Assembly (NCBI GenBank): GCA_022601195.1
Contig: JAHZIX010000008.1
Location: forward strand, 124,001-188,000
DNA from: Deltaproteobacteria bacterium
Lineage (GTDB): Bacteria; Acidobacteriota; Thermoanaerobaculia; Multivoradales; JAHZIX01
Direction of reading: 5' to 3'
DNA length: 64,000 nucleotides
The notes below the pieces were generated by a model. The model was not told where the DNA came from. It did no database searches and saw only the letters and a list, made by a program, of their open reading frames with translations. Positions within the stretch are counted from its first letter, which is position 1, and each line of letters begins with the position of its first letter. This document shows positions 2,845 to 40,197 of this stretch, piece by piece. Made by a program: the position numbers and the translations under genes.

Positions 2845-4155
2845 TCAACGGAGAGCGCAGGTTCGAAACCCTGCCCAAACGTCCCGCCGATCCGGTTGGT
2901 AGAAGTTGCGCCAAGTGTTGCGCAGCATGCGGAAACGAGTTGCCCAACAACCGCCGCGCAACACTTTGTGGTCACCGAACCACGGCTCCGAATAGTCCTT
3001 GTAGGGATCTGCTTCAAAGCCTGGATAAGGGCCGAAATCCGTGGCGGTCCATTCCCAAACGTTGCCCACCATTTGGCGAAGACCGGTCGGTGTATCTCCT
3101 CCCGGCAATGCTGTCACGGCGACCGACCCCTCGTAGAAGCCATTGACGCAGGCTCTTCCCTCCGGGGAAGCTTCCTCGCCCCAAGGATAGGTGTTTTTCT
3201 CCAAGCTCGAGGCCGCCATTTCCCACTCTGCCTCCGTAGGCAGGCGCCGGCCTGCCCAGCGGCAATAGGCATCCGCTTCGTACCACCCCACGTTCATCAT
3301 AGGAAGGAGAGGTTCGATCTCGACGAGGCGATCGTAGGCTCGGCGGCGCCAAGGTTCAGAGCCTTCCCGGCACCACGTAACAGGGTGTCTCGGTTCCGCC
3401 TCTTCCAGCCATTTTCTTCCCTCGTCACACCACAATTCCGGGCGCTGGTACCCGGCGTCCTCGACAAATTCCAGAAACTGCCCTTGGGTCACCGCTGTAG
3501 CTGCCATGGCGAAGGCTTCCACCCGCACCGTGTGAGCCCATTTTTCATTGTCGAAGACGAAGGAAAAACCGGGAGATGCGCCGAGTTGGAACGATCCACC
3601 GGCGAAGCCAACGTCGCCACCTAGGCCAGCCAAGCTAAGGGGGCTGACCGTATCGGGCTCCGGTAGATTCAGCCGGACCCCGAAGGACTCCGGAGGGGGA
3701 GCTGGATAGCCAAGGGTTTGGCGGGTATAGGCGAAAGCCTCAGCATGCATATCCTCATGAAAAAGAGCGAGAATGTGAAAGTAGACCTGCTCCGGGCTCG
3801 GTTCTCCCACCAGATGCTCTAGGGTGTCCTCCAGGGAGTCCTGCATATAGGCCAGGATCTTCTCCCGCCCCACCAGCCTCAAGTCCCAACGGGTGTCGTG
3901 GGGCACCGCCATGGAGTCATAAAGTACATCGGCTCGTTCGAGGAGTGACGCCTTCCCCCTCAGGTGCCGACGGATCCAACGCTCTTGGAACCAAGCAACG
4001 TGACCGATTTCCCACAGCAACGGATTGACTATCGACAGCTGAGGTCCTATGAGCTGCTCGTCATCGAGATCCTCCACCAAGGCGAGGGTTCGCCACCGGG
4101 CATCTTGAAGCGCCTTCGCCAGCTCAGTGGCGGAATAACGAGCCGTACTCTTCAT
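2845..4155 (-). CDS. EgtB/SenA-family nonheme iron enzyme (candidate selenoneine synthase)
   Basis: 436 residues: an N-terminal DinB-like helical domain followed by an FGE/SUMF1-type domain (about 190-436, with [17 protein letters not shown] and RGGCW). The likely iron ligands are H52 (in [13 protein letters not shown]) and H133/H137 (in [10 protein letters not shown]). Classical EgtB carries HEQQHQE at the latter site. As I recall, the HEDMH form with downstream YTRQTLG is typical of SenA, which joins hercynine to a selenosugar. Divergent selD, 168 bp away, supports selenium use. The alternative is an ergothioneine-type sulfoxide synthase. Membership of the EgtB/SenA superfamily is firm; the selenoneine assignment is an inference at moderate confidence. 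The gene is followed by a disulfide reductase in probable operon. Confidence 0.85.
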
Positions 4156-4323
4156 GAGTCTTTATTTCTGCGGTGAGATCGCTTTCCCAAGGTGGATCTG
4201 TTCTCCCAAGGTGAATGAGGGATTCCTTCGACAAGAGTGTACCGAACTCCCATCCCGCCAGGAACCGCGATAGTCTTGGCAAGCCCACTCTCGTGGATCG
4301 AATAGGAAGGGAGGTGATGATCG

Positions 4324-9374: not shown

Positions 9375-12086
9375 ATGAGGGGACCGATGACAGCCGAAGA
9401 GCGTTCTTCGAAAAACCGCGGCGGCAAGAAGCCGTCCCGAGAGTTGTCCTCCGGAACACGTATCGGTCCCTACGAGATCGAACGGAAGCTGGGCTCCGGC
9501 GGTATGGGAGAAGTTGCCCTGGCCTTCGACCGACGCCTCGGTCGCCAGGTCGCCATCAAACGGATCCGTCACGACTCCAATTCTTCCAAACCGGATCGAC
9601 AGCGGCTTCGACGGGAGGCCAGGGCCGTCGCCGGACTGAGCCACCCAGCCATCGTACAGATCTACGACATCCTCACCGAAGGGGATGAAGACTCCATCGT
9701 CATGGAATACGTCCCGGGCCAATCCATCGCTGAGCGCCTGCGCTCCGGGCCACTCCCTCTCGGCTTGACCTTGGATCTGGCGCAGCAAGTGGCTGAGGGG
9801 CTCAGCGAAGCCCACCGCAGCCATCTGGTGCACCGAGACCTGAAGGCGGAAAACGTCATGATGACGCCCCGGGGAAAGGCCAAGATCCTCGACTTCGGCC
9901 TTGCCAAGCGCCTCGAAAAAATCGACATCGACAACACCTTGACCCAGCGTGGAGTCCTCCTGGGAACGGTGCGGGCCATGTCGCCGGAACAGGCCGCCGG
10001 GGAAGATGTGGACTCGCGATCCGACCTCTTCTCCCTGGGAACTCTGCTATTCGAGATGCTCTTCGCGCGCTCCCCTTTCGTCGGCGCCAACGCCCTCGAA
10101 ACCCTCCGCAATGTGCAGAGCCGCCAGCCCCAGCCGGTGGAAGGGCTGCGACCGGAACTGCCATCGGAGGTAGTACAGCTCCTCTACCGGTTGCTGGAGA
10201 AGGATCCCGGAAAGCGCCCCCAGTCGGCTCAGGAGGTGATCCGGGCTCTCGATCGCGTCCGCGGTAGCTTGCCCGAAGAAGGCCCGCGACTGAACTGGCA
10301 AGACCCTGATGGAAGCCTGGGGGATCAGGAGACGAGCTCCTTCGACGAAAGGCAGGAGGAAGCTCCCGCAGCGAGATTCGAAAAGGCTTCCCCGTCTCCA
10401 GGCTCTCCAGAGGATCGAAATCCATCGGCAACCGGTCGTCGTCGAGTGCGTTGGCTGGCCATCGCGGTTGCTGTGGCGTTTGTCGTCGCGGCTGGCTTGT
10501 GGTTCTTGTCGACCCGCCCTCCAGATCGCCTTAGGGTTGTTGTCTTACCACCGGAGATTCGCGGCGCAGCCCCCTCGCCGGAACTCGAATTTGCTGCGTC
10601 GGGTGCTCTGATAGCTGTTATCCGTACCCTGACCACCCTAGAAGGAGTCGCTCCCGTCGAGCCGGAACAGATCGGTGAGACCTCCGGATCTCCGCGAGAA
10701 GCCGCCCAAGCTGTTGCAGCGGATGAAGTTCTGCGACTGATGCTCGAAAAGCGTTCCGCTGGTTTCTGGATTTCCCTGCAGCGGGTGCGAGGTTCCGATG
10801 GCGAGATCCTCTGGGTCGAGACCTTCGAAATGCCCTTGCGCCAATCCGCAGCGCGGCTGGTGGCCGAATCGCTGGAAATTCGCCTGCGACGTGCCTATTC
10901 CGAAAGACGTTCCCGCCCGGGAATTCGGAAGCTGGAGGTTAGGGACGCCGACTATGTTGAGTTCGTCCGAATCAGCCAGCGCATCGAATCCGGTCAAGCC
11001 TCCTTGGAAGAAGAGATGACACGATTGGAGGCCATCTCGGAGAGCTCTCCTTCGTTCCTGGAGGCCAAGCTTACCGCTGCCAATACAGCTCTCAGCCTTC
11101 ATAGCGATACCCGAGCCAGCGAATACCTGAAGAAGGCCGAAGAACTTCTGCTGCAAGCGAGGCAGCTAGAACCCATGAGCTCCATTGCGATCATGGGACA
11201 GCTTCGACTCGCCCTGGCTCGGAATCAGGAGGAGATGGCCCAACGAGCTCTCGCCGAGCTCGAGAGAGAGAGGCCGAATAGTGTCGAGGTCCTGCTCGCC
11301 CAAAAAAGCCTAGCGATACATCGAGGGGATCAAGATGAAGCCCTCGCGATCCAACAGCGAATGGTCGACCGCTGGCCCAGTTGGCAAGGTCTCTACCAGC
11401 TCGCCGAGCTTCAGAAGCGCGCGGGGAATATCGAGGAAGCCCGCAAGGCCCTTGATACCCTGATCCAGCGCTCCCCGAGGAACTCCTGGGGTTTGGGGAA
11501 GTTAGCTCAATTGGAACTGCTCTTTGGAGACCTGCAACGAGCCCAGGAGCTCTTGGTCCGAGCCATCGAGGTTCGCCCCCATCGCAGTTACTACACCAAT
11601 CTGGGCCTAGCGAGGTTTCTACTCGGTGACTATGCTCACGCGGAGGCCAGTTATCGCGAAGCGCTGAAACTGAGTCCCGACCACTTGACCACCCGCTTGA
11701 ACCTCGCCGATACCGACCTCGCCTTGGGAAACGAGAAGGAGGCCGCTACCGGTTATCGAAACATTTTGGACAGCCTCCAAGGCCACCGAGAAAAACCGAC
11801 AGAGAGGATGACCGTAGCTCAGTGCCTAGCTCGCTTGGATCGACATCGCGAAGCCATCGAGGTGACCTTGGAGACTCTCCAAGAGCACCCGGAACACCCC
11901 GAAGTCCGGTACCAAGCCGCATTGGTCTACGCCATCGTGGGCGAAACCAACTCAGCCCTGGTCAACGTCGAGCAAGCCCTGAGACGGGGAGTCCTGCCTC
12001 GGTGGTTCCACGTACCCGGCTTCGAAGCGTTGGCCTCCAACTCCCGTTTCCAAGCCCTCATCTCACCTGTCGAAGGTTTGCCCTAG
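9375..12086 (+). CDS. Transmembrane Ser/Thr protein kinase with TPR sensor domain
   Basis: 903 residues (ATG 9375; ATG 9387 is also possible). The kinase domain is about 33-295: G-loop GSGGMGEV, K62 in VAIKRI, catalytic HRDLKAEN (D155) and DFG (D173). All key residues are present, so it should be active. A single membrane helix (WLAIAVAVAFVVAAGLWFL) lies near 357-377. The remaining ~500 residues are mostly TPR helices (for example AHAEASYREALKLSPDHLTT). The likely topology is an inner-membrane kinase with the TPR part outside. Unlike the two kinases at 21931-28025, it has no ECF sigma factor beside it. Substrates are unknown. Confidence 0.93.
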   Translation: MRGPMTAEERSSKNRGGKKPSRELSSGTRIGPYEIERKLGSGGMGEVALAFDRRLGRQVAIKRIRHDSNSSKPDRQRLRREARAVAGLSHPAIVQIYDILTEGDEDSIVMEYVPGQSIAERLRSGPLPLGLTLDLAQQVAEGLSEAHRSHLVHRDLKAENVMMTPRGKAKILDFGLAKRLEKIDIDNTLTQRGVLLGTVRAMSPEQAAGEDVDSRSDLFSLGTLLFEMLFARSPFVGANALETLRNVQSRQPQPVEGLRPELPSEVVQLLYRLLEKDPGKRPQSAQEVIRALDRVRGSLPEEGPRLNWQDPDGSLGDQETSSFDERQEEAPAARFEKASPSPGSPEDRNPSATGRRRVRWLAIAVAVAFVVAAGLWFLSTRPPDRLRVVVLPPEIRGAAPSPELEFAASGALIAVIRTLTTLEGVAPVEPEQIGETSGSPREAAQAVAADEVLRLMLEKRSAGFWISLQRVRGSDGEILWVETFEMPLRQSAARLVAESLEIRLRRAYSERRSRPGIRKLEVRDADYVEFVRISQRIESGQASLEEEMTRLEAISESSPSFLEAKLTAANTALSLHSDTRASEYLKKAEELLLQARQLEPMSSIAIMGQLRLALARNQEEMAQRALAELERERPNSVEVLLAQKSLAIHRGDQDEALAIQQRMVDRWPSWQGLYQLAELQKRAGNIEEARKALDTLIQRSPRNSWGLGKLAQLELLFGDLQRAQELLVRAIEVRPHRSYYTNLGLARFLLGDYAHAEASYREALKLSPDHLTTRLNLADTDLALGNEKEAATGYRNILDSLQGHREKPTERMTVAQCLARLDRHREAIEVTLETLQEHPEHPEVRYQAALVYAIVGETNSALVNVEQALRRGVLPRWFHVPGFEALASNSRFQALISPVEGLP

Positions 12087-12371: not shown

Positions 12372-13175
12372 CTAGCTCTCCCTCACTTCCCCCGATGGAA
12401 TTGAGGGAATGGGATCCCCTTCATCATCGATGGTGGGATCTCCGCTGCTCTTGCCGAGAACATTTCCCGTCTCTACACAGATCATCTGAAAAAGATATTG
12501 GTACTGACCCGGGGCCGCCCCGGAACCTCCGGCGAGGATCGAGTTATTTCGTGTGTCGAGGCTAGTGAAGGGTCCGTAAAGCCTATTTAGGTTTGCTCTT
12601 CTTTCCGGACCACTGTAGAAGAGGAGTCTTGGGTACCACTTCGGAATGTCCTTGGGGGGCTGCACTACCTCCCAAATCAGGCATTGCCCCGCAGCCAAGC
12701 TCACCTTTTCAGGCCGAACCAAGAGAACCTGTGAGTTGTCAGGATGCTGATAGACTTTGATGGTCGAACTGACTTTGCTGTCTACCTGATTGATGATGGT
12801 CGCCCTCTCAGAACGGATCGGCTTATCTGCCTCCGGGTGCGCTCTACTGGTGGGAGGCTCTAGGACCGCACGGTAGCTATATGTACCCCTGTACCCACTG
12901 TTTCCGCAAGCGATGACCGAATTTCTCGTCGAGCAAAGGTTTGTAAAGGGTCCCGAGTAGCGGGGTACCGGGCCGTTGTCGAGAAGCTTGAACTTGATCG
13001 CAGCAGACCAACCTTGCTCAATCAGCGACTCGACTCCCTCGAATCTCCAAACCGCCGAATGGATCGCAGAGGTCTCTGAATCCAAGGTGATCTCAGGCTC
13101 GCTGATCTCCAACCAGGGTTCGGGATCTTCGATGTACCTGACGCTGATCTCGTACTCTTTCGGCTCTGTTGCCAT
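12372..13175 (-). CDS. Two-repeat protein of unknown function, sigma-54 dependent
   Basis: 267 residues, ATG 13175 with an AAGGAGA ribosome site. There is no signal peptide and no recognised domain, but there is an internal duplication. Copy 1 (about 10-110) and copy 2 (about 135-235) share a Trp-x-phi strand (AVWRFEGV; LIWEVVQPP), then GPFTNLCSTRNSVIACG versus GPFTSLDTRNNSILAGG, then GTYSYRAVL versus GQYQYLFQM. A beta-sandwich fold is likely. A related repeat occurs in the protein at 39253-40197. A near-perfect -24/-12 promoter lies upstream, and the divergent neighbour is a sigma-54 activator, which probably controls it. Confidence 0.75.
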   Translation of the reverse strand: MATEPKEYEISVRYIEDPEPWLEISEPEITLDSETSAIHSAVWRFEGVESLIEQGWSAAIKFKLLDNGPVPRYSGPFTNLCSTRNSVIACGNSGYRGTYSYRAVLEPPTSRAHPEADKPIRSERATIINQVDSKVSSTIKVYQHPDNSQVLLVRPEKVSLAAGQCLIWEVVQPPKDIPKWYPRLLFYSGPERRANLNRLYGPFTSLDTRNNSILAGGSGAAPGQYQYLFQMICVETGNVLGKSSGDPTIDDEGDPIPSIPSGEVRES

Positions 13176-13332
13176 GCTTATCTCCTTCCAAGAAGAATCA
13201 GGTTAATCGCCATGAAAACCCTTTCTCCAAGGGCCAATGAGACCTCCTCCCAAAAGAACCAACTTCCGGGAGAGGCTTTCTTCTCTGGCGACGGTTTCGA
13301 ATCTCTTTCCAGGGACTCTGCGGCTACGAGTG

Positions 13333-13348
13333 AGCAAAGCCTGTGCCA
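13333..13348 (-). promoter_or_regulatory. Sigma-54 (-24/-12) promoter for the 12372-13175 gene
   Basis: The minus strand reads TGGCACAGGCTTTGCT, an exact match to the consensus TGGCACR-N4-TTGCW. It predicts a start site near 13322 and a 5' leader of about 146 nt. The divergent gene encodes a sigma-54 activator. Confidence 0.8.
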
Positions 13349-13463
13349 GCCGCTGGAACCGACAAAGCCTAGGCTTCCACTTCTTATGTCTATCTAATTG
13401 GTGAGACAACTCTATCTCTTTCAATAGACCTCTACAGAAAGCTCCATCAGTCACGATACAATG

Positions 13464-13492
13464 CCGACCGAAATCCGACCCTTCGGTAGACC
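13464..13492. promoter_or_regulatory. Possible activator-binding site near the activator's own start
   Basis: ATCCGA (13473-13478), four bases, then TCGGTAGACC (13483-13492) resembles the site at 15628-15643, where ATCCGA is followed directly by TCGGATAGACC. The inverted pair ACCGAA/TTCGGT also lies here. It sits 20-50 bp before the activator's start and about 145-170 bp upstream of the divergent -24/-12 start site, so it could serve either gene. The match is partial. Confidence 0.35.
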
Positions 13493-13512
13493 ATTTTCTA
13501 GGGAGGCCAAGC

Positions 13513-15507
13513 GTGCAAAAAAACGCTATGGAGCCGAGACTCTTCGTCCTTTCCGGCCCACTGGAAGGCCACACCGCCATCATCGATGCCGAAGAGTTCT
13601 TCATCGGCCGCCATGCCTCCAATTCCTTGGCCCTGCGAGACGTGGCGGTTTCTCGACGCCATGCCGTTATCGCTAGCCATGGCGACGCCCTGACTCTGCG
13701 AGATTTGAACAGTCGTCATGGGGTTTCCGTGAACTCTAGGCCGGTGCAGGAACACTCCTTGACCCACGGTGACCTGGTGGCGATTTGCGGTACGACGTTG
13801 CTCCTTTTGACCCAGGACACAGAGCTACCCGGCGGCGACGCCTCCATTCGCTTCGATGACACGGCGATGCTCGCTGACTCGACGATTGCCCTGGAAGTTC
13901 CGGATGGCCCGGCTGCTCGCTGGCAAGGGGTCGTGGAAACGTTGACCAAGGGGAGCGAGAGCGCCGCCCAGTTGAGTGTGCTGCTACGCGCTGGATCGGA
14001 GCTGGGCAGTTTCGAAAACCTCGACGCGCTGGCCGAGCACCTGCTCCGACTTGCCCTCGAAGCCGTTCCCGCCCAACGCGCCGCCCTCCTCCTATCTCTG
14101 GCCGAGCCCAGTAGCTTCGACCCGATCTTTGTCCGCTACCGGGAGCAGCTAGACCCGGCGGCAGCACCTTCAGCAGCCACCTCTCCTGACGCAGCGCCCC
14201 TCAGTCGAACGGCGGCTCTGCGGGTCCTGCATCACAAGAAGGCCCTCCTTTCTAACGATGTCCGGAGAACCGAAGGCCTGGAGGCTGCCGCCAGTCTCAA
14301 GGCGGCCCGGGTTGGCTCTCTCCTTTGCACTCCTCTCCTGGTGAGCAGCCATGGCAACGGGTTCACCGCGTCGCTAGAACAGCAACCGGCTCGGGCTCTC
14401 GGGGTCCTCTACTTGGACGACCGGCGGGACGGATATTGCTTTTCAGAAGGGGATCTTCGTCTGATGACAGCCTTTGCCGGTATGGCGGCGCCAGCCGTGG
14501 CCAACCTCCAAAACCTGGTGTGGACCGAAGGAGAGCGCCGACGCCTGCAAGCTGAAAAGCTCGACCATGATCTGGTCGGCGAGAGCCCCGCCATGGCCAC
14601 GGCGCTGGACCTCATGGCTCGGGTAGCCCGCACCGCGAGCACAGTCCTGCTTCGCGGTGAAAGCGGCACTGGCAAAGAGTTAGCAGCTCAGGCGATCCAC
14701 CGTGGCAGCTCGAGGAGGGATCGCCCCTTTGTGGCCATTAACTGCGCCAGCCTGTCTGACACGCTGCTCGAAAGCGAACTCTTTGGTCACGAGAAAGGTG
14801 CCTTTACCGGTGCCGTCGCTCGAAAGCTCGGTAAGTTGGAGATCGCTGCTACCGGTACCGTTTTTCTGGACGAGGTCGGGGAGCTGCCTGCCCAGCTCCA
14901 AGCCCGGCTTCTAAGAGTGCTTCAGGAGCGAATGTTCGAGAGGGTAGGCGGTACTCGCCTCCTACGAGCCGATGTGCGAGTGATCGCCGCCACCAATCGG
15001 GATTTGGAGGCAGCCATGGCCAACGGCAGCTTCCGGAGAGACTTGTTCTTTCGCCTCAACGTCATCACCATCACATTGCCCCCTTTGCGGGAGCGCCTTT
15101 CGGACGTGCCATTGCTGGTTCGACACCTGGCAGCTCTCCACGCGGATCGCCTAGGCCGACCGATCCCTCAGTTCTCACCGGATGCCAGGCAGCTATTGGG
15201 CGGTTATTCGTGGCCTGGAAATGTCCGCGAGCTTTCCAACGCGGTCGAACGAGCCCTGGTGCTCAGCCCAGAGGAAATCATCCGCCCCGAAGATCTGCCG
15301 GAAACTCTACTGGAGATCTCGCCTCCCGAGAAAAAGACGGACAATGGATTTCACGAGGCTGTGCGAGAACACAAGAAGCAGCTCATTCTGGCCGCGATAG
15401 AAGAAGCCGATGGCAGAATCGTCAAGGCTGCCAAGGCTCTCGATCTACACCCCAACTACCTACACCGCTTGATTCGAAACCTCGATCTGCGCGCCCAGCT
15501 CCCTTGA
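13513..15507 (+). CDS. FHA-GAF sigma-54 enhancer-binding regulator
   Basis: 664 residues from GTG 13513 (GGGAGG six bases upstream; ATG 13528 is the alternative). Domain order: FHA about 9-100 ([20 protein letters not shown], with the phosphothreonine-binding Arg, Ser and His), GAF about 160-335, AAA+ about 355-590 and a Fis-type HTH about 625-660. The AAA+ domain has Walker A GESGTGKE (382-389), the sigma-54 contact loop GAFTGA (429-434), Walker B FLDEVGE (451-457) and the arginine-finger region, so it should drive sigma-54 open-complex formation. The FHA domain suggests control by a Ser/Thr kinase, of which the window has three. Both flanking genes have -24/-12 promoters, so local control is likely. 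Confidence 0.95.
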
Positions 15508-15662: not shown

Positions 15663-15723
15663 TTCCTGGCCGAAATCCCTTTTGAGGGTCCTCGGTCCGT
15701 GCATCTCATCGACAATCCCACCT

Positions 15724-15739
15724 TGGCATCTCTATTGCT
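15724..15739 (+). promoter_or_regulatory. Sigma-54 (-24/-12) promoter for the heme-motif protein gene
   Basis: TGGCATCTCTATTGCT matches TGGCACR-N4-TTGCW except at the sixth and seventh bases; the GG and GC core and their spacing are exact. It predicts a start near 15750, 78 nt before the ATG. The neighbouring activator gene and the upstream palindromes support it. Confidence 0.65.
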
Positions 15740-15827
15740 GTTTAGAGGCTCATTACAGCTAGTCAGCGATATCGCTCGGTTTCGGAAACGAGATCTAAGA
15801 AGAACTCTCAATGCAAGGAGTCTCAGC

Positions 15828-17144
15828 ATGAGGACACTCGTCACGATTCGACCAGAAGAAATTCCTTCGACCAATGAGGTAGCCACGAAATCCTTCACTG
15901 TGGAAAGAGCTGGGCTCGCGGTACTCGGTGTCTTGGTAGGGTCCATCTTTTTGACCATAGCAGCCACCCCTCCGTTGGTAGCCTCGGAAGATCCCATAGG
16001 CGCCGCCAACATGGCCTACAACGATCCGGATCAATTCGCCTGGCATCTCTTCGCAGCGGTCAATCGGCCCGCTCGACCTGGTTCCCGCGTGGCGACTTGG
16101 GAAACCTGGTCCGAGCAGGCAGTGGTCTATGAAGATCCCTGCAAAAAACCGCAATGGCCAGGTCTCGACGGCCCCTTTTCGGCTCACCGCTCCCGGCTGG
16201 TAGTAGACCTGACAAATACCATTGCCAGCCAACAATTGGTCGCCGACGATTTCAACGCTCTCACAGGTGACGAGAACCTGCAGCAGGTCAAACTGAACCG
16301 ACCGTTCTTCAACTACGTAGTCGACAATGATCTTTGGTACCAAGAAGGGGTCATTCGCAAGGCCAGCACCCAAGGCATTGACTTTCCCTCTGGTGCCGTT
16401 GTCTACAAGGCAGATTGGAAAGAAATCTCTCCCGAAGACAAGTCACGTTTCCAATGGCGACAGATAGGCCGCAAGCAATACAACGAGATCTTGGGGTTGG
16501 GGGACAGCTCTGGTCTCGGAAAGGCTGGGGGACAGGCAACGGATTCAGACGAAGAAGAATCCCCCACCGTACTCTTGGGGCTCAGCTCCTTTCACATCGT
16601 CAGCAAAGCCCTCGACAGTTGGGTTTGGACGACCTGGAACCAAGCGGATACTTTGGGACGTTGCGACTACATCGGTTGCCGCGACGACTTTGGCGTCGAG
16701 CCATCCTATCTTCCTCCCAACATCGAGATGGGTCTGCCCTACGCCCCGACAAAGCTGACTCCAGCAGCTCGAAGGATCCTCGACGAAGCCGGTTTGGATG
16801 AGGTCTGGCATCACTATCGGTTGATGGGAACTCAGGTGACCTTCACCGATCACACCGGCCGCCCCACCCTTTTGGGCAACGTCGAATTGGAACCGGGCTT
16901 TGGAAATACCTCCTCCTGCATGACTTGTCATGCCATGGCGACCCTCAGCGCAGTCGCTACCAGTCTGAGTTTCCTCAAGAGCATGCAACCCTTCGAAGGC
17001 TTCGTCGGCACTCCGGACCCCGATTGGTACTACCCTGCCCACACGGGCTCTCCAGTGACTCCCATCGTCTACCAAACGGATTTCATGTGGGAGCTGACGG
17101 AAACCAGCTCACGAGTAGGAAGCAGCTGCGAACCGTCGAGCTGA
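15828..17144 (+). CDS. Exported or membrane-anchored protein with one c-type heme motif
   Basis: 438 residues from ATG 15828, chosen because AAGGAG lies seven bases upstream; an in-frame ATG at 15699 would place the promoter inside the gene. A hydrophobic segment (AGLAVLGVLVGSIFLTIAAT, about 28-47) is a signal anchor or peptide. The single CMTCH (364-368) is a c-type heme-binding motif near the C terminus. The protein is rich in aromatic residues (WVWTTWNQ, WHHYRLMGTQ). It resembles large acidobacterial mono-heme proteins of unknown function. A periplasmic electron-transfer or oxidative role is possible but not shown. Its promoter type points to control by the activator immediately upstream. 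Confidence 0.8.
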   Translation: MRTLVTIRPEEIPSTNEVATKSFTVERAGLAVLGVLVGSIFLTIAATPPLVASEDPIGAANMAYNDPDQFAWHLFAAVNRPARPGSRVATWETWSEQAVVYEDPCKKPQWPGLDGPFSAHRSRLVVDLTNTIASQQLVADDFNALTGDENLQQVKLNRPFFNYVVDNDLWYQEGVIRKASTQGIDFPSGAVVYKADWKEISPEDKSRFQWRQIGRKQYNEILGLGDSSGLGKAGGQATDSDEEESPTVLLGLSSFHIVSKALDSWVWTTWNQADTLGRCDYIGCRDDFGVEPSYLPPNIEMGLPYAPTKLTPAARRILDEAGLDEVWHHYRLMGTQVTFTDHTGRPTLLGNVELEPGFGNTSSCMTCHAMATLSAVATSLSFLKSMQPFEGFVGTPDPDWYYPAHTGSPVTPIVYQTDFMWELTETSSRVGSSCEPSS

Positions 17145-17474: not shown

Positions 17475-20400
17475 ATGCAGTATCAAGGTTCTACTAAGCA
17501 GCAACGATTTCTAGCCCTACTCGTTGCCTTCGCGGTCTTCGCGGTCTTCACGATCTTCGTGTCCGGCACCGTCGCTCGGGCTCAGCCACCGGACACGGAG
17601 AGAACCCCTTTCCGCCAGGCACTGTTGAACGATCCGGCCTGCGACAACCAATCCATGTTCTGTATCGACGAATCCTTCTACTTCACCTACGCCGACTCCC
17701 CTCCCAATCCTGCCGCCATGGAGTTTTGGGTCAACCCTGGGGGCTTGGGGCACGTCAAAGTGGGACCTCGGAGGCCAGACTTAGTTCTCCAGGACCCTCA
17801 GCTGATCTCCTTCACAGACCCAGCCAATCCACCACCCCAACTTCTCGGTCTTTGCCCTCTCCTCGAGCCCGGACCTCCCGCTACCCCGAAGTGCTTTGCC
17901 GACCCCTTCGGAGGCGCCGATATTTGCCCGGTCCGAGAATTGTGGAACATCTTCGGCTACTACGTAACGGTCACCTACGACCCCAACGGGGTCCAAGAGT
18001 TGGAGGACCCCATCGTTCAATTTCAATGCCTGCAGGGGACCTGTCAGCCGAACCCCAGAGTCACCGCTCCCATGATCTCGATCACCACCCCGGCGACCAC
18101 CGGCGGGCCTTACCTCGATCCCGTGGACGGGAATCTAGATGGCGTTCGGGACGGCGTTGCCAGTTTCGCAGAGATTTGTGCCGACTCGACCCTCTCTTTT
18201 CTTCAGGTCGGGCAAATCTCAACTCTCCAAGTCGACGGCGTCGTCATCAACGTGCGCAATGCCAGTCTCGGCGGAAACCACCTCTCCACCGATCTCATCG
18301 CCACCTTGATCGGCGCTCGCTACGGGCAATGGCGATTTTCCAAGTTCAACCAGACGCCGATGATCTTTCACAACGGTGGTTCCTGGGGCACGGGCCCGTG
18401 TTTAGCCACCACCCTCATGCACCCGGAACTGGTCCAAGGTTGCATCGGCTCGGCCAGCTTGCCGGACGTCACCGAATTCAAGAACCACATGATCTGGGAC
18501 TCCAATGCCCAGGGTCTCCTGACCGGCATGAATACTCCGGCCAATGACGGCACCTCGATGACCTCGGGTCTGGACCGAGGGTTGACCTTCGACATCGAAA
18601 ACACCCAGATCCCTCATGTGGCACAAGTGATGTCTCCGGCCCACCGAACCGCCGACATGGAAACAGCCATTTTCATGTGCAACAGCGATGGCGATTTCTC
18701 CAGCGACGCCTACGGGGCCACCAACAAAGCCCTCGAAGCGGAGCTCGCCAACCTAGGAAAAAGCAATATGTATCGCCTCAAGCTAGTTCCCAATCGCGGC
18801 CATGGCATCGCTATCCAAGGATCGGACTTCGTCTCCTTCCTCCTCGACCAGCTCTACCCTCAGTACCTTGATGTACTAGCAAACCCTCCATCGATCGATC
18901 CTTTTGGCACCGACTCCCCGGAAACCGGCGAAGACTCCATCTATCAAGCCAGCCTGCATTTCTCCCCCTTCGCCACTCCCCAGGGCGATTCCAGCCTTCT
19001 CCAAGAGGAATTTCGCATCGAAGATGGTGGCCTCTTTCCAGGGCGGTGGGCCGCTGAGCTCCTCGACCTCAATGGCAGCGGTGAGCCGTCTCATTTCCTC
19101 CTCGGTCATGGCGACGGCAGAGTCCAACTCTTGGAGCTCGTGGAGGACAACTCCAACATGGAGGTGCGAGAAGTCGCTTCGACGGATTCCCAAGGCTTCG
19201 GCCTCAACGGATTGGCGAGCTATGAGAGCGGCACCGGCCAATCCGTGCTTTCCATCGACTCCACCGGCGAGGCAAAAGTCCACAAGCTCAGTGACAACGG
19301 CACCTCTTGGGACCTGACTCTCGAGCTCGCTCTGCCACTCCAAGCTCTGGTCGGTAACGAGGCCAGAATCCGCAAGACCCGAGTATTTGGAGGTGAGTCG
19401 CTGTTTATCTTTGGAAGCCCGCCGCACTTCTACCAACCTGGCGGCACCAACGGACCGATTATCATCGCCGACCCGGTGACCTTGGCCACCACGGTGCTAG
19501 ATGCGGACATCCTCAACGAGGCGATCTCTTACGACGATGACCACGGTCTTCTCCTCCTGAGTGCCAAAGGCTACGTCGGTGACGTCGACCCCAGTCAGCC
19601 CCTGGTGACGGCAAACGGCTCCCAGCATCTCCAATTCCGCAAGATCAGCCCTTATTTGGGGTTCTCTCCCGTGGGCGGAGTGGAGGTCCAGGTCCAGGGC
19701 GCCCGCCATTTCCTCGTGGTCGGTAGCGGCGCCACCCGGCAAGCGGTCCTGTTGGATCAGAACCTAGCCGAGATCGCGGTCTATGATCCCGGTAATCTGG
19801 TCAAGGGGACTCCCTCTCAGGTCTTCGCCCACCCCACCGATCCCGAGCTCGTGCTGCTGCAATTTCCCAGCTCCGTGCAGGCGATGAGAATCGATCCCGC
19901 CGGTCCATTCCTGGTCTTGATCGACCCTCCGGTTTACACCGCATCAGCCCAGATTCAGACCGCTCGTCCCTTGCTATGGCAAGGTCAGGCTACCCTGCTC
20001 ACGGTGAACCGTTACGGTGGGATTCAGGCTCAAACCCTAGGGGCGACCCCGCAGGTGCTCTTCGACTCCACGTCTTCCGTTCGCAGCCTGTTTCATGGCG
20101 TTTCCTGTGACGGTGCCGGCTCCTGTTACACCATCAACCGAACCAACGGCGAGGTCTGGCAGTTGGACGGTCAAGGCAAGCTGGCGACTCTCGTCTCCCA
20201 GGAGGCCTTCGGTAGCTTCTGTCCCGAGGCAACTGAAAGTTGCGCCCAAGCACCTGGAAATGCCCTGAGCCGCTTCGGTGCATTGCGCAGCCTGATCGTC
20301 GATGACGACGGCTCCTTGTACCCCGTGGGCCAACGCGCAGCTCGTCTCGAAGTAATAGATGCTCAAGGTGAGTCCTCACCCGGCAACCGCATCGCTTATT

Positions 20401-21200
20401 CGGAGGGAGGCCTCCTCCTGGTCCGAGATATGCGCTCCGGCGGCTGTCACTACCTGGGTGCGGACACCCCATGGAGCGACTGCGACAGCTTCAACTTCGG
20501 AGTCAATGACAACGTCCTCAATCGAAAAACTCTCGACCCAAGCCTCGGCACCCTCTATGTCGATGTGGCGGATTGGGTCAAGAACGCTGGAAATACCTTC
20601 GGCCACAACCTCCGCTACCTGGAAGTCGACGGGGACGAGATCGTCGTGGCCACCAACGAGGCCGGCTGGATCCGTATATTCCAGCGCCCTTCCGGATCCA
20701 ACGACTTCGATTTGGTGGCCGACAACCGTCCGATCCCAGGCCAAGACATTCACTATGGCCGTGGCTGCCCAGCCCTCGACGTTCGGGTCGACCCAGCCGG
20801 AGCCCATGGAGTGGAGAAGCTGGTCGTCTATCGAGGTTGCTTGGCCCAGAACAACACGGGGGGAAGCCTCGAAGGTTGGTCCCTGGTGGCCTCCGGAGGT
20901 GCGCTGCCCTATGACCTACTCCCTTCCTGGTCTCTGCTCCAGGATCTCTCCCCCACGGCAGTTCATTTCATCGATCAGCCCGGCGACGAGCTTGGCACTT
21001 TGGTGGTTGGGGATATCTGGGGGCACCTCTACCTCTTCGATGCCACCGATCCGTCTGTGCCGCCGACCCAGCTCCTGCGTACTGAAAGCCTCAGGGGTGC
21101 GGTCGCCACCGAGGGCTTCGAGTACTTCCAGGACAGCAGTGGCGACGGCCATCTCTATGTGACCACTGGGCGAGGCCACTACCGGTATCTCTTCAAATAA
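17475..21200 (+). CDS. Large secreted protein: alpha/beta-hydrolase-like domain plus propeller-like repeats
   Basis: 1241 residues; ATG preceded by GGGAGG. A signal peptide ends at VARA (about 36). Residues about 60-470 look like a serine hydrolase: GGSWG (S303) fits GxSxG, with a candidate acid in CNSDGD (about 405-407) and His in NRGHG (H443). The order Ser-Asp-His and the many paired cysteines suggest an extracytoplasmic esterase or depolymerase. Residues about 490-1241 are beta-rich repeats with Asp/Gly turns (LDLNGSGEPSHFLLGHGDGR; VHFIDQPGDELGTLVVGDI), like FG-GAP or propeller blades. The substrate is unknown. The gene stands alone and ends in a strong hairpin. Confidence 0.8.
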   Translation: MQYQGSTKQQRFLALLVAFAVFAVFTIFVSGTVARAQPPDTERTPFRQALLNDPACDNQSMFCIDESFYFTYADSPPNPAAMEFWVNPGGLGHVKVGPRRPDLVLQDPQLISFTDPANPPPQLLGLCPLLEPGPPATPKCFADPFGGADICPVRELWNIFGYYVTVTYDPNGVQELEDPIVQFQCLQGTCQPNPRVTAPMISITTPATTGGPYLDPVDGNLDGVRDGVASFAEICADSTLSFLQVGQISTLQVDGVVINVRNASLGGNHLSTDLIATLIGARYGQWRFSKFNQTPMIFHNGGSWGTGPCLATTLMHPELVQGCIGSASLPDVTEFKNHMIWDSNAQGLLTGMNTPANDGTSMTSGLDRGLTFDIENTQIPHVAQVMSPAHRTADMETAIFMCNSDGDFSSDAYGATNKALEAELANLGKSNMYRLKLVPNRGHGIAIQGSDFVSFLLDQLYPQYLDVLANPPSIDPFGTDSPETGEDSIYQASLHFSPFATPQGDSSLLQEEFRIEDGGLFPGRWAAELLDLNGSGEPSHFLLGHGDGRVQLLELVEDNSNMEVREVASTDSQGFGLNGLASYESGTGQSVLSIDSTGEAKVHKLSDNGTSWDLTLELALPLQALVGNEARIRKTRVFGGESLFIFGSPPHFYQPGGTNGPIIIADPVTLATTVLDADILNEAISYDDDHGLLLLSAKGYVGDVDPSQPLVTANGSQHLQFRKISPYLGFSPVGGVEVQVQGARHFLVVGSGATRQAVLLDQNLAEIAVYDPGNLVKGTPSQVFAHPTDPELVLLQFPSSVQAMRIDPAGPFLVLIDPPVYTASAQIQTARPLLWQGQATLLTVNRYGGIQAQTLGATPQVLFDSTSSVRSLFHGVSCDGAGSCYTINRTNGEVWQLDGQGKLATLVSQEAFGSFCPEATESCAQAPGNALSRFGALRSLIVDDDGSLYPVGQRAARLEVIDAQGESSPGNRIAYSEGGLLLVRDMRSGGCHYLGADTPWSDCDSFNFGVNDNVLNRKTLDPSLGTLYVDVADWVKNAGNTFGHNLRYLEVDGDEIVVATNEAGWIRIFQRPSGSNDFDLVADNRPIPGQDIHYGRGCPALDVRVDPAGAHGVEKLVVYRGCLAQNNTGGSLEGWSLVASGGALPYDLLPSWSLLQDLSPTAVHFIDQPGDELGTLVVGDIWGHLYLFDATDPSVPPTQLLRTESLRGAVATEGFEYFQDSSGDGHLYVTTGRGHYRYLFK

Positions 21201-21930: not shown

Positions 21931-24660
21931 TCAAGATGGGAAATCTTTCTTCAGAACGGATCTGAACTCGCTAGCTTCGTCAGGCCGATGCCAAGCTTGA
22001 TAGAGAACGATGATGCGCTCCAGAGAACGCTTGGAACGCCGACTCTGCACCCCCCGCTTCTCCCGAATGAGTCGATAGCTACGCAAGAGGAGAGACTCCG
22101 CTTCCTCGAACTCCTCGAGTCTGGTGAGGCAATCCCCCAAAACACTTTCGGCGAGGGCAACGTCGAGGTGCCCATCCGGCCAGGTACGGTGCTCCATCTC
22201 CACCGCATCTCTTAGCAGAGGTAGGGCTTCTTGCGGCTTACCCTCCTGTAACAAGATCTCACCAAGTCCCCAGCGAGGGTGAGCCAGAAAGTGGTGTTCC
22301 GGAGGCAGAGCTCGGCTCAGAGACTCCAGAGACTCCCGGAACAAAGCTCTGGATTCGGTAAAATCACCCTTCCCGCTCAGCACCTCCGCCAACTGGAGAC
22401 GATCGACGGCGCTCCAGAGGTGCTCACGGCCGATACTTCCCTGCCACAGGTTGAGGGCTTGGCGAAGATATGCTTCCGCCTCCTCGAACTCGCCTTGGGA
22501 GTCCAACAGGCCGCCAAGATTCTTCATCACCATGGCCACGTCCGGGTGCTCTTCTCCGACCAAATCGCGCTGGTATTCGAGAGCCTCCAACAACTTTTCT
22601 TTAGCGGCCTCGATATCACCGTTGGCTTGGAGAATGAGGCCTAGGTTACTCAAGGTCTTGGCTAACTCGGGATGTGGTTGCAGAAAGATTCGCCGTTGCG
22701 TCTCGAGAGCTTCCTGAAACGCAGACTCCGCTCCAGCGTAGTCTCCGGCTTGCGCCAAAGAAGTAGCCAGATTGTTCAGGGAAAGAGCCACGTAGCGATG
22801 ATCCCCTCCAAAAACCCTTCGATTCAGTTCGAGGCTGTCTCGAAATGCTGTTTCAGCAGCACCATAGGACCCTCGGTTCTGTTGAATGAGGCCGAGATTA
22901 TTAATGGTCTCGGCAACCTCTGAATGCTCCTCCCCAAAACTAGCCTTGCGAATCCTGAGAGCGCGCTCGAGGAGTTTTTCGGCAGCATCGAACTCCCCCT
23001 GATCAATCAACAAAAGAGAAAGATCATTCAAGCTCTCCGCAACGTCCTGGTGAGAGGAGCCCAAGGTGGCTTCCCGAACTTCCAATGCTCCCTCGAGGAG
23101 CTCCTCTCCCCTCTCATAGAGACCCAGGTTGCGATGAATGTTGCCCAGAGAATTCATCACACTGGCTTCCACCTGAGGCGGATTCTTGGAGTCTTCCAGA
23201 ACTCTGGCAGCTCGAACCACGATCTGCTTTGCCGTGAGCTCCTCCCCTTCCGTCGGTAGAGACTTGGCTTCGGCAAAGACCTCTTCGAGAAACCGCAGGG
23301 CAAGCTGGCTCTTGTCGCGCTCGAAGCGAGCTTCGTCCCGCTCCCTCGTCACCCGCGCCGCCTGCACTCCCATCATGGCCACGAAACCGGCCAACAAGAC
23401 CAAGACCAGGGAAGCGATGGCGACAGCGACCCGGTGGCGGCGAAGAAACTTCGCGCACCGGTAGCCCAAGGCGTCGCCCCGTGCCAACACCGGAAGACCT
23501 TTGAGATGAAGACGAATATCCTCTGCCAGCTGCTCCACAGAGCTATACCGTCGCTGGGGTTCCTGACGCAGAGCCTTGAGGACAATGTTGTCCAAATCTC
23601 CAGCAAGCTGCCGGCGGAGAGACTCCGGCTCGAAACTTCCGACGCGATTGACTACTGCCCCCTGAGCATCGACCCGAGCTTCGGCTCCTGCCCCCAGTTC
23701 GGAGCTGATCACCTGACTCGGCAGAGTAGGCTCTTGTTCTCCCAGGGCACTATCGATCTCCTGCGGCGATTTTCGGTTACGATCGAAAGGCAGGCGACCG
23801 CACAGCAACTGGTACAGCAAGACCCCTAGAGAGTAGACGTCACTGGCGGTGGTGATGGCTTTGCCTTGAATCTGCTCCGGGCTGGCGTAGTTTGGAGTCA
23901 GCATCCGATGCCAGGTGACCGTGGGTTGTAGGTTGGGCAAGCTCAACTCGGGATTGAGCAGTTTTGCGATACCAAAGTCCAGAAGCTTGGGCACTCCATC
24001 TGCCGTTACCAAAATATTGCTCGGCTTCAGATCTCGATGAACCACCAGGTTTTGGTGGGCGTAGTGAACCGCCGAACAAACCACTCGGAACAGCTCCAGG
24101 CGCTCCCGAATCAGCAGTCGGTTGCGGTCACAATAGCTATCTATGGCCTCACCCTCAACGTACTCCATGACGAAATAGGGAAGGCCTTCCTCCGTAGCTC
24201 CGGCATCGAAGAGGTTGGCGATGTGGGGATGAGCCAGGCTCGCTAGAATGTGACGCTCAGTGCGAAACCGGCGCAGGTGCTCGGAGCTCACCAGGGCATT
24301 CGGAGCCAACTTGATGGCCACTCGCTTGCGGTATTGGTCGTCAGCACGAGAGGCCAGGAACACCGTGCTCATGCCGCCTTCGCCGAGCTTCGTCAGGAGA
24401 CGATAGGGACCGATCATGCGGCCCGGCGCTACCCCCTGGAAATCAACCAACTCTGAGTCGACTTCCAGCTGGTTCAGAAAATCTCCCATTTCTTCCTCAG
24501 CTCGAAGAAGAGAGTCGACCTCCCCCTTCAAGGCGGCGTTGTCACCGCAGGCTTGGCGAAGAAAGGCCTCTCTTTCACCGAAAGGAAGGCCGGAGGCTCT
24601 CTCGAGAAGGCTCTCTACTTCCTCCTCGCTGTAACGGCCAGCTGAATCGAGCTCGCTCAT
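21931..24660 (-). CDS. Transmembrane Ser/Thr protein kinase with TPR repeats
   Basis: 909 residues from ATG 24660, whose ATGA overlaps the stop of the ECF sigma gene, so translation is coupled. An N-terminal ~75-residue helical segment precedes the kinase domain (about 75-350): GEGGMSTVF, Lys in RVAIKLAPN, HRDLKPSN and LLDFGIAKLL are all intact. A membrane helix (VAVAIASLVLVLLAGFVAMM) lies near 410. The C-terminal half is a regular array of kinesin-light-chain-type TPRs of about 42 residues (LNNLGLIQQNRGSYGAAETA). The decayed gene at 211-1400 is a relative. ECF sigma plus kinase in one operon is a common acidobacterial and planctomycete arrangement; the signal is unknown. Confidence 0.94.
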   Translation of the reverse strand: MSELDSAGRYSEEEVESLLERASGLPFGEREAFLRQACGDNAALKGEVDSLLRAEEEMGDFLNQLEVDSELVDFQGVAPGRMIGPYRLLTKLGEGGMSTVFLASRADDQYRKRVAIKLAPNALVSSEHLRRFRTERHILASLAHPHIANLFDAGATEEGLPYFVMEYVEGEAIDSYCDRNRLLIRERLELFRVVCSAVHYAHQNLVVHRDLKPSNILVTADGVPKLLDFGIAKLLNPELSLPNLQPTVTWHRMLTPNYASPEQIQGKAITTASDVYSLGVLLYQLLCGRLPFDRNRKSPQEIDSALGEQEPTLPSQVISSELGAGAEARVDAQGAVVNRVGSFEPESLRRQLAGDLDNIVLKALRQEPQRRYSSVEQLAEDIRLHLKGLPVLARGDALGYRCAKFLRRHRVAVAIASLVLVLLAGFVAMMGVQAARVTRERDEARFERDKSQLALRFLEEVFAEAKSLPTEGEELTAKQIVVRAARVLEDSKNPPQVEASVMNSLGNIHRNLGLYERGEELLEGALEVREATLGSSHQDVAESLNDLSLLLIDQGEFDAAEKLLERALRIRKASFGEEHSEVAETINNLGLIQQNRGSYGAAETAFRDSLELNRRVFGGDHRYVALSLNNLATSLAQAGDYAGAESAFQEALETQRRIFLQPHPELAKTLSNLGLILQANGDIEAAKEKLLEALEYQRDLVGEEHPDVAMVMKNLGGLLDSQGEFEEAEAYLRQALNLWQGSIGREHLWSAVDRLQLAEVLSGKGDFTESRALFRESLESLSRALPPEHHFLAHPRWGLGEILLQEGKPQEALPLLRDAVEMEHRTWPDGHLDVALAESVLGDCLTRLEEFEEAESLLLRSYRLIREKRGVQSRRSKRSLERIIVLYQAWHRPDEASEFRSVLKKDFPS

Positions 24661-25259
24661 GACTCGCCATGGAGGTATCGGTACAGCCAAATGCGAGCCA
24701 CCCGAAGGCGCCGGGCGATGGTAGGGCGGGATAGCCCCAAGGACTCGCCGATCTCATCTCTATTCAAGCCGCCGAAATACCGCAGCTCCACCACCTTTGC
24801 CTGCTGGGGATGAACCGCCGCTAGGGCCCCGAGGGCTTCGTCGACAGCGATGCACTCTTCGGGACGATCCATGGGCAGGCAAACCGATTCTTCCAAAGGA
24901 AGATGCTCCACTCCCCCTCCCCGCTTTGCACAAACGCGATCGCGGGCATGATTCACCAGGATTCGACGCATCATGCGAGCCGCCATGGCAAAGAAGTGTC
25001 CCCGATCCTGCCAACTGACTTGCTTTTGGCCCAACAATCGAAGATAGGCCTCGTGTACCAAAGCCGATGTCTGGAGGGTGTGGTCACTACGCTCCTGACG
25101 GAGCCGGGAGGAGGCCAGGCGACACAACTCCCCATAGATCAGCTCCATGAGCTGAGTATGGGTTTCTTCATTCCCCTCCGCCCAATCCTGAAGGAGTCCG
25201 GTTATCTCCCCAGCTTCTGGCCGCTCACCGAGCGATCGTATCTGCCGCCCCCTTCCCAT
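24657..25259 (-). CDS. ECF-type RNA polymerase sigma factor (kinase-linked family)
   Basis: 200 residues. Region 2 is about 25-100 (SALVHEAYLRLLGQ, FFAMAARMMRRILVNHARD) and region 4 about 130-195 (VVELRYFGGLNRDEIGESLG, followed by a HTH). The combination LVHEAYLRL with FGGL is typical of the ECF family that accompanies Ser/Thr kinases (TIGR02999-like). It overlaps the downstream kinase gene by 4 nt. There is no anti-sigma gene. In this family control is thought to come through the kinase, which is an inference here. The start is uncertain because no good ribosome site precedes ATG 25259. Confidence 0.92.
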   Translation of the reverse strand: MGRGRQIRSLGERPEAGEITGLLQDWAEGNEETHTQLMELIYGELCRLASSRLRQERSDHTLQTSALVHEAYLRLLGQKQVSWQDRGHFFAMAARMMRRILVNHARDRVCAKRGGGVEHLPLEESVCLPMDRPEECIAVDEALGALAAVHPQQAKVVELRYFGGLNRDEIGESLGLSRPTIARRLRVARIWLYRYLHGES

Positions 25260-28025: not shown

Positions 28026-28615
28026 GACTGTCGTTTTCCCGGTGCCTGACCAGCAACTTCCAGGTGGAGCCAGGAGCGTGCCGCGGTCCAGTAGCGGTTG
28101 ACTGTGCGGGGAGCCAGGTCGAGAGCCCGGGCAGTCTCGGAAACGGTCAGGCCGGCGAAGTAACGCAACTTGACCACCTTCGCCATCCTGGGGTCCTTGA
28201 TCTCTAGACGATCCAGGGCCCGGTTCAAGGCTAGAAGCTCGATATCCAATTGCCCGCTTCCCGCGGCCCTTCCTACATCGTCACCGAGAGTGACTTTGAT
28301 CTGACCGCCTCCGTGGCGCGCCCGCTGGGAGCGGCGAGCTTTCTCGATGAGGATCCGCCGCATGGCCTCGGCGGCAGCGCCATAGAAATGCCAACGGTTG
28401 TCCCATAGGGGCTCTTCCTGCCTCCCGAGGCGGAGAAAGGCCTCGTGAACCAAAGCGGTGGGCTGGAGAGTTTGCCCCGGCCGCTCGCCGCTGAGCCTCT
28501 TGCGAGCTAGCTGGCGCAGCTGTTGGTAGACCAGAGGAAGCAGGACATCGGCAGATTGACGGTCTTCTGGCATCCCGCTAGCAAGTCTGGGCTCGGTGTC
28601 GGAGTGTTTCACCAT
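28022..28615 (-). CDS. ECF-type RNA polymerase sigma factor (kinase-linked family)
   Basis: About 197 residues from ATG 28615. The frame is open further, to GTG 28828, but the added 71 residues do not look like a sigma factor. Region 2 shows TALVHEAFLRLG and WHFYGAAAEAMRRILIEKAR. Region 4 shows VVKLRYFAGLTVSETARALD plus a HTH (LAPRTVNRYWTAARSWL). It overlaps the kinase gene by 4 nt and no anti-sigma gene is present. It presumably recruits RNA polymerase to promoters controlled by the kinase signal; targets are unknown. Confidence 0.9.
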   Translation of the reverse strand: MVKHSDTEPRLASGMPEDRQSADVLLPLVYQQLRQLARKRLSGERPGQTLQPTALVHEAFLRLGRQEEPLWDNRWHFYGAAAEAMRRILIEKARRSQRARHGGGQIKVTLGDDVGRAAGSGQLDIELLALNRALDRLEIKDPRMAKVVKLRYFAGLTVSETARALDLAPRTVNRYWTAARSWLHLEVAGQAPGKRQS

Positions 28616-39252: not shown

Positions 39253-40197
39253 TTATCGAAGGTCTTTAACGCCCGGGGAAGGGATTCCCTCATTGTGCAG
39301 TTGAGAATCACCGGTGGAGAACATCTGCACCGACAGCGGCCAGCTACTCAGAGTCACCGCTTCGTAGTAAAAGCGACCACTCTTCGCCTTGAAATCCCAG
39401 GCTTCAACCCCCGTACGATGCAACCGCATGCGGCGGCAAGGTGCGAAATATTGGTTCTTCCTATGGGGCTCCAGGGCGTGCTGGTTCTGATCACTGCATT
39501 TCTCTTCGAAATGGGAGAAGAGAATCAAAGGGAGAAGAGGGTCCAGGTTCTGGTCGAAGCGCCAACGCACCACCGAGTTTGCGAAGACGCTTTCCGGCTC
39601 TTTTGGTTCGAGAGTCAGACGAGGCTTGTCAGGAGAGCAGCGACGCACCGAAAGCTCCACCGAGTGCTCCTCTGGCGATAAGGGACGATGATAGAGAGTG
39701 CCAACCGTTTCAGTCGCTCGAAGGGAAAGCGTTTGCCTCGAAGTGCTGAGTCGGGAGAGGGCCTTGTGCTGCTCGAAACCCTGACCTCGATGCAGCATGG
39801 CGATGTAGGGAAAATCTTTCTTGGCTGGAGGTACAGAGCACCCACCCGGCCACTCGCCGACCAGGTCCATCAAAAGAGCCTCCCCCTCTCCTGCCAGGCC
39901 GATCTGCAAGAAGCTCTCGAAGGGGCCAAAAGGCGAGGAGGCAATCCCTCCGTCCTCCGCATCGAAAGCCAGCGCCGGCGACCACCCTGCCGGCAAAGGA
40001 CCGATCACCCCATCTGATCGGCGACTACGAAACCGCCACCGCACCGGCCACCCCACAGGAACGGGCAAGCCTGGGGTCTCCACCTCGAGGGTCGCCGTTT
40101 CCGGATCAAAGAAGACCCAAATGTCGATCCAAGGGCGCTCTCCGAGACTGGTGAGTTTTTGGTATTCCAGAGGTTCGAGACTCGCAGGACGGGACAT
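39253..40197 (-). CDS. Unknown protein related to the 12372-13175 repeat protein
   Basis: 314 residues, no signal peptide, no recognised domain. Two diverged repeats are visible. The first has PVRWRFRSR, WSPALAFDAE and FGPFESFLQIGLAGEG; the second has VVRWRFDQNL, LILFSHFEEK and SGRFYYEAVTL. The same Trp-x-Phe strand, GPF turn and G-x-Y-Y/S-Y end strand occur in the protein at 12372-13175, so both probably belong to one beta-sandwich family. No -24/-12 promoter is seen upstream here. It stands alone on the minus strand between the TetR operator and the TonB operon. Confidence 0.7.
   Translation of the reverse strand: MSRPASLEPLEYQKLTSLGERPWIDIWVFFDPETATLEVETPGLPVPVGWPVRWRFRSRRSDGVIGPLPAGWSPALAFDAEDGGIASSPFGPFESFLQIGLAGEGEALLMDLVGEWPGGCSVPPAKKDFPYIAMLHRGQGFEQHKALSRLSTSRQTLSLRATETVGTLYHRPLSPEEHSVELSVRRCSPDKPRLTLEPKEPESVFANSVVRWRFDQNLDPLLPLILFSHFEEKCSDQNQHALEPHRKNQYFAPCRRMRLHRTGVEAWDFKAKSGRFYYEAVTLSSWPLSVQMFSTGDSQLHNEGIPSPGVKDLR

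Follow-up and report, generated by a model that had tools for sequence, protein, structure and literature searches.

A small Asp-Pro protein family co-encoded with TPR kinases and sigma-54 activators in Thermoanaerobaculia

Protein A, a 267-residue protein encoded on the minus strand at 12372..13175 of the window (the whole 64,000-nt stretch of DNA analysed here), belongs to a cassette that recurs in Thermoanaerobaculia (Acidobacteriota) and in which a small protein stands between a Ser/Thr kinase (KIN) and a sigma-54 activator (EBP). This recurrence is well supported. Our best reading, to which we assign a probability of roughly 0.45, is that a self-contained switch, running from kinase to activator to sigma-54 promoter, controls A as its output, that A is a sandwich that may process itself, and that its paralogue, protein B, has been left without partners, promoter and the proline of the motif. 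The whole is based on an internal duplication, the gene layout and its recurrence, the enrichment of sigma-54 sites and the conservation of an Asp-Pro bond. Kinases, FHA activators and DP-EP proteins were each known already; the novelty lies in their combination, of which a search of open-licence PubMed Central found no description by title or abstract.

KIN (9375..12086, plus strand) is convergent with A and comprises a kinase domain (residues 33-287), a strongly hydrophobic segment near residues 360-380 and a C-terminal TPR half. EBP (13513..15507, plus strand) is divergent from A and has the domain order FHA-GAF-Sigma54_activat-HTH_8 (PF00158, E = 1.5e-68; FHA, 2.2e-15; GAF, 2.6e-8; HTH_8, 6.5e-5). 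A Sigma54_activat AAA+ domain and a C-terminal HTH identify it as a sigma-54 enhancer-binding protein; a GAFTGA motif can be read in its sequence. Outside the window, sequence similarity yielded 22 homologue loci, with a weak match in genome G010 left out (E = 0.0096, one stop, at locus L023, which has neither KIN nor EBP). A convergent KIN-type or kinase neighbour was found in 19 of the 22; L142 and L146 show none, and at L021 the contig ends too early to tell. Among the 22, the kinase ORF of L015 lacks its middle and that of L141 is similar to KIN in its kinase domain only. In 9 of these loci, the family gene has an EBP next to it. In the window, no homologue of KIN or EBP adjoins B, and the B orthologue in genome G023 carries both, in the same cassette. 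At L016 (2768-4759), a Trans_reg_C winged-helix domain takes the place of the kinase domain in an apparent module swap that leaves the C-terminal TPR half, and the small protein convergent with it, in place, which suggests that the cassette association follows the sensor half.

A search with the C-terminal half of KIN, followed by inspection of the 3' side of the matches for small convergent ORFs, uncovered many such ORFs that end in DPx[IV]xN. The unit HMMs described below recognise few of them below E = 0.001 (L081, L087, L088, L091 and L099), and the remaining partners were placed by position and motif only. When a C-terminal [DS]Px(x)[IVLM] in a convergent small ORF was counted, 38 of all 48 KIN-type genes had such a neighbour, compared with 34 of 265 control genes. 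Because some of the 48 loci had been found through A itself, the count was repeated for the 29 kinase genes to which KIN alone had led, and a motif ORF was present at 20 of these (p = 2e-10 against the same controls). An EBP lies within 2.5 kb of 22 of the 48 KINs, compared with about 3.4% expected from the 36 strong EBPs of the window's own 8.01-Mb genome; the other 26 have no EBP nearby, and some of the contigs end early. In that genome, a strong EBP is found near four of the five best KIN matches (C31, C52, C50 and C2, not C39), and a small partner ending in Asp-Pro at C31, C39, C52 and C2, with none seen at C50. The C2 locus has the order EBP-small-KIN, as in the window, with a lipoprotein-like small protein and an EBP that has GAF and lacks FHA.

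Judged from N-terminal sequences, the localisation of the family looks mixed. The small protein of genome G289 has an apparent signal peptide, as does, unlike A, a relative outside the class (L141, 6040-6558). A relative in the window's own genome (L117, 3600-4199; this locus fell below the BLAST filter and is not among the 48) has a lipoprotein-like start, again unlike A. A crude check found no N-terminal hydrophobic stretch in A, so contact between A and a TPR half lying outside would need export.

Ten further EBPs were scanned for domains. All ten have the sigma-54-interaction domain and six have FHA, these six being the ones beside A- and B-type genes; the seven FHA activators that were aligned all show the signature GR...SRxH. 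FHA was absent from the other four (L117, L115, L097 and L151), and a relay through FHA therefore cannot be general. Sigma-54 control recurs more widely than FHA input. At L115 (750-5034), L097 (3955-8222) and L151 (3393-7690), the FHA-less activator sits directly upstream of KIN on the same strand, with gaps of 15-47 bp, a position that replaces the divergent placement beside the small gene. FHA-domain sigma-54 activators associated with Ser/Thr kinases are known in Myxococcus. The window's EBP resembles them in its FHA-GAF-AAA+-HTH organisation and in having a Ser/Thr kinase two genes away, but differs in that a dedicated, recurring third gene with a sigma-54 promoter is placed divergently from the activator.

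Within the cassette, the small protein evolves fastest. Across seven cassettes, its mean pairwise identity is 28%, compared with 52% (kinase domain), 40% (C-terminal half of KIN), 42% (FHA region) and 63% (AAA+), and a divergence of this kind would fit a role in recognition or at a surface. In a mirror-tree comparison, small-protein identity correlated significantly with AAA+ identity only (rho = 0.69, p = 5e-4); no significant correlation was found with the kinase domain, the C-terminal half of KIN or the FHA region. The output family is large, and because of this fast divergence it is nearly invisible to sequence libraries.

The preliminary description had placed one of the two proteins under a sigma-54 promoter, and A indeed has a perfect -24/-12 match, TGGCACAGGCTTTGCT (13333..13348, minus strand), 173 nt upstream of its ATG; B has no site (best score 1.5). 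With one mismatch allowed, the window holds two sigma-54 sites against 1.5 expected by chance, so the weight of A's site lies in its position and recurrence. A score of at least 6.5 was found upstream of 8 of 38 family genes, compared with 10 of 395 other ORFs from the same loci, a control set that includes spurious ORFs (p = 4e-5), and upstream of 5 of 20 genes in the KIN-derived subset (p = 3e-4). The remaining 30 of the 38 have no strong site; L081 counts as a miss through a wrongly picked ORF, its true family ORF (3783-4220) scoring 6.3. Several start codons (L015, L018, L020, L021 and others) were chosen by hand, and the distances to the sigma-54 sites shift accordingly. Among the repeats in 13176-13520, upstream of A, no convincing activator palindrome was seen. 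The second site of the window, TGGCATCTCTATTGCT (15724-15739, plus strand, one mismatch), lies just downstream of the EBP gene, within the start of an ORF at 15699-17144. EBP may act on this site as well, although 1.5 such sites would be expected in the window by chance.

The duplication within A and B is real, each protein having two homologous units of about 110 residues. In A, the N-terminal unit (residues 1-133; 12777..13175) carries W43xF45, GPF at 75-77 and GTYSY, and the C-terminal unit (residues 134-267; 12375..12776) carries IWEV, GPF at 201-203, GQYQY and Asp246-Pro247; both are predicted beta-sandwiches, and the Asp-Pro bond joins the two halves, SSGD and PTIDDEGDP, of the C-terminal motif. 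B, a paralogue of 314 residues (39253..40197), is likewise encoded on the minus strand, with its N-terminal unit at 39673..40197 and its C-terminal unit at 39256..39672. The ORFs proposed earlier for the two proteins are present on that strand, and the kinship claimed between them, together with the two units in each, was confirmed by BLASTP (21% identity, E = 2e-6, over most of the length) and by a cross-search of unit HMMs. For the latter, 12 two-unit proteins (A, B and ten relatives) were split into N- and C-terminal units and searched against a background of all units, 1,029 decoy ORFs and 960 shuffled units. With the N-unit HMM, 11 of the 12 C-units were recovered at E values between 4e-16 and 4e-4 and the twelfth at 0.73; with the C-unit HMM, all 12 N-units were recovered (E ≤ 1.6e-3), whereas the best shuffle reached E = 0.16 and the best decoy 1.4. 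The described pattern of W-x-F, GPF and G-x-Y-x-Y is visible in the units, except that the second unit of B has FAPC in place of GPF (FEPC in the orthologue of B). The preliminary description missed the kinase and activator cassette, the C-terminal Asp-Pro motif and the size of the family.

Neither A nor B matched Pfam or NCBIfam (E ≤ 10) or PADLOC (E ≤ 0.1), and a scan of PHROGs with the unit alignment A3 gave single-member matches only (E ≥ 0.0066). The fold of A may be an Ig-like or cupredoxin-like sandwich at most, and this is uncertain. A was predicted, from three sequences in the alignment, as a pair of beta-sandwiches with a mean pLDDT of 57; the model of B (pLDDT 40) was unusable for fold comparison, so that the units of A and B could be set against each other only with a low-confidence model on one side and an unusable one on the other. 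With the low-confidence A model, Foldseek returned 840 matches at E ≤ 10 and none at E ≤ 0.001, and VIA-align gave a best Z of 6.4, mostly to antibody domains and over residues 150-255. The Ig-like family He_PIG matched 2 of 28 units (best E = 6e-4), with no match to A or B themselves. Likeness to cupredoxins, CopC and CrdA consists of weak plastocyanin profile matches (E = 0.01-0.03) and, for the low-confidence model, a Z of 6.2 to CrdA; unlike cupredoxins, the unit alignment shows no conserved His/Cys copper ligands of the His-Cys-His type.

What the family conserves best is a single bond. The Asp of Asp-Pro is the sole invariant column in 18 of 18 homology-defined C termini, a set not chosen by motif, and the Pro is present in 17, with B alone having Asp-Ser. 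In a wider, partly motif-chosen set of 47, in which the DPs selected automatically at L081, L086 and L090 are dubious, Asp-Pro occurs within the last 50 residues of 45 members, compared with 140 of 959 control ORFs, and DPx[IVLM] in 41, compared with 30 of 959. A Ser two positions before Asp-Pro is found in 17 of 45 members but in 10 of the 12 two-unit proteins. A carries the (S)xDPxIxN motif; B has DS.

This element resembles the cleavage site of SO1698, a resemblance of weak significance read from sequence profiles. We take PDB entries 3n55 and 3njf-3njn to be Shewanella oneidensis SO1698, of the DUF1888/DP-EP family (PF08985). SO1698 has a beta-sandwich fold, and Osipiuk and colleagues reportedly described it in 2012 as 'self-cleaving and self-assembling', with a Lys-Asp bond. 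The chains of 3n55/3njn, 3njf, 3njg and 3njj end at the Asp of the motif, at 119 residues, whereas 3njh and the forms reading APDP, SPAP and SPDA (3nji, 3njk/3njl and 3njm) run to 128 residues; from these deposited chains we deduce that cleavage takes place at Asp-Pro and needs the Ser, the Asp and the Pro. For FrpC, autoproteolysis at Asp-Pro by way of an anhydride has been described (PMC7846742).

Matches to this family were local and faint. A profile of 24 C-terminal units found 3njh (E = 0.013) and 3nji (E = 0.07) in the PDB alongside plastocyanins, and with a 30-protein profile 3njh came first (E = 0.04); the match to 3njh covers about 35-45 residues around the ending SPDPQIINRP. PF08985 matched 2 of the 30 proteins of alignment A7 (best E = 2e-4, 22.1 bits, below the 25-bit cut-off) and neither A nor B at E ≤ 10; across 396 genomes of the phylum, none exceeded the cut-off and two weak matches lay inside very long frames. 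The preliminary description knew of no family with this pattern; by its own standard, under which a match to a described family would refute it, these matches count partly against it. The homology-defined profiles A3 and A9 (18 C termini) did not list 3njh at E ≤ 10, with A9 yielding no DP-EP structure at all at that threshold, and 3njh was not among the structural matches listed for the low-confidence A model. When A3 and A9 were aligned to the SO1698 fragment, 0 of 2,000 full shuffles scored as well, compared with 19 and 26 of 2,000 when the motif was kept; the motif therefore carries most of the DP-EP signal. With A7 and A8, the fragment beats all shuffles, motif kept or not, which has little weight as the fragment was chosen via A8, and hhalign gave a probability of 90% for A8 and 10% for A3. 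No match to the fragment was found in plasmids. The family and DP-EP proteins share an SPDPxIxN-type C-terminal motif and a local similarity, but differ in that the residue aligned to the Lys of SO1698 (Lys98) is mostly not Lys, that A and B are tandem proteins, that the family is tied to a kinase and sigma-54 cassette, and that the match stays below the Pfam cut-off.

The switch we propose is read from gene order, domain content and promoters. KIN would receive a signal, probably through its TPR half, which we infer to lie outside the membrane; the FHA domain of EBP would read the phosphorylation state of KIN, and EBP would then switch on A from its sigma-54 promoter. Protein A and the relatives that have diverged from it would be small Ig- or cupredoxin-like sandwiches, mostly of one unit and, through duplication, of two in A and B. 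By analogy with SO1698 they may process themselves at the Asp-Pro bond, for which, on the motif and this analogue, we see about one chance in three, and they may work by binding or by assembling, not as enzymes of the classical kind. If cleavage at Asp-Pro is the function, B is expected to be inactive because it has Asp-Ser; it may be an orphaned, non-cleaving relic that has lost partners, promoter and motif Pro. A bolder version, which we regard as improbable, is a phospho-controlled system with a self-cleaving and possibly cross-linking output, in which a hypervariable Asp-Pro family is co-encoded with TPR kinases across Acidobacteriota and has become tandem in the lineage of the window. TPR-repeat Ser/Thr kinases are numerous in these genomes and, to our knowledge, their targets are mostly unknown. 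Here, a pathway of kinase, activator, promoter and dedicated output protein can be read from the genome and tested directly, and the one constant of the output family is a bond resembling the one where the chains of SO1698 stop. A few constructs would suffice to test pathway and chemistry alike.

An unlikely, though serious, alternative is that A is a non-cleaving sandwich that binds or regulates, for example as a feedback inhibitor or as a scaffold of kinase and activator, with Asp-Pro only a structural turn that closes the sandwich. Apart from the Asp, the positions that are conserved (W, F, GPF and Y) are hydrophobic or form turns, the best PDB sequence matches apart from DP-EP are the plastocyanins, mainly over the first strands, the weak A model resembles Ig and CrdA sandwiches at Z of about 6, and the tight genetic linkage to KIN would suit a kinase regulator. 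A turn of this kind does not readily account for an Asp that is the only invariant column of the 18 C termini, nor for the chains of the presumed analogue ending at that very bond.

We attach little probability to an antisense role, in which the sigma-54 transcript would run into the 3' end of the kinase gene and repress it as feedback, the protein being secondary. It is favoured by the convergence of the genes, an order that the choice of ORFs partly dictates, by stop codons that share 4 nt in 8 of the 45 KIN/ORF pairs chosen (7 among the 38 with the motif; the other a non-family ORF), and by the small protein being the one that evolves fastest. In the window, however, 286 bp separate KIN from A, and Asp-Pro is kept at the amino-acid level despite strong divergence.

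Still less probable is a role in conflict or in defence against phages, in which KIN would be an abortive-infection kinase. KIN matches the PD-T4-6 models of PADLOC with E values down to 1e-86, and the small protein diversifies fast, but in the 25 PADLOC matches listed the best stretches span about residues 7-385, the kinase domain plus linker, and look generic; moreover, A and B have no PADLOC match, and searches of plasmids and viral contigs found, within their sensitivity, no relatives of A. The C terminus of PF12306 proteins carries a DPTI-like motif. This resemblance and the mostly beta model of a PixA-family protein (PMC9060813) are what could make A a distant PixA/AidA-type inclusion-body protein, which we consider very improbable: PF12306 was absent at E ≤ 10 from A, B, 28 units and the 30 proteins of A7. 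It was also not found in 199 genomes, in a search that was silent in the control genomes too.

The distribution of the family was mapped at several depths. One of two named relatives, in a Thermoanaerobaculia bacterium (Acidobacteriota; record JALXFE01), has 53% identity. A-type proteins were found in 9 of 59 genomes searched, the window's own (8.0 Mb) included, and B-type proteins in 3 of 59, with one very weak case among the three. When the first 11 proteins were combined into a profile, it detected the family in 11 genomes out of 72 from the order and in 15 out of 148 from the class; the class-wide search added proteins with a single unit, about 110-120 residues long, and an HMM built from these recognises the units of the two-unit proteins as well. 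Across the phylum, the unit profile found matches in 9 of 347 sampled genomes, one of which, a single contig with 85% completeness, lies outside the class.

Several other genes of the window were noted. Two successive pairs of a Sigma70_ECF sigma factor and a Ser/Thr kinase-TPR protein lie at 21931-25259 and 25317-28828 (minus strand), their kinases being of a different type from KIN. A 1,241-residue protein at 17475-21200 (plus strand) has no Pfam match at E ≤ 1e-5. A Trans_reg_C-TPR protein is encoded at 36484-37962 (plus strand), 1.3 kb from B; it has no detectable kinship to KIN, and we do not claim it as the lost partner of B.
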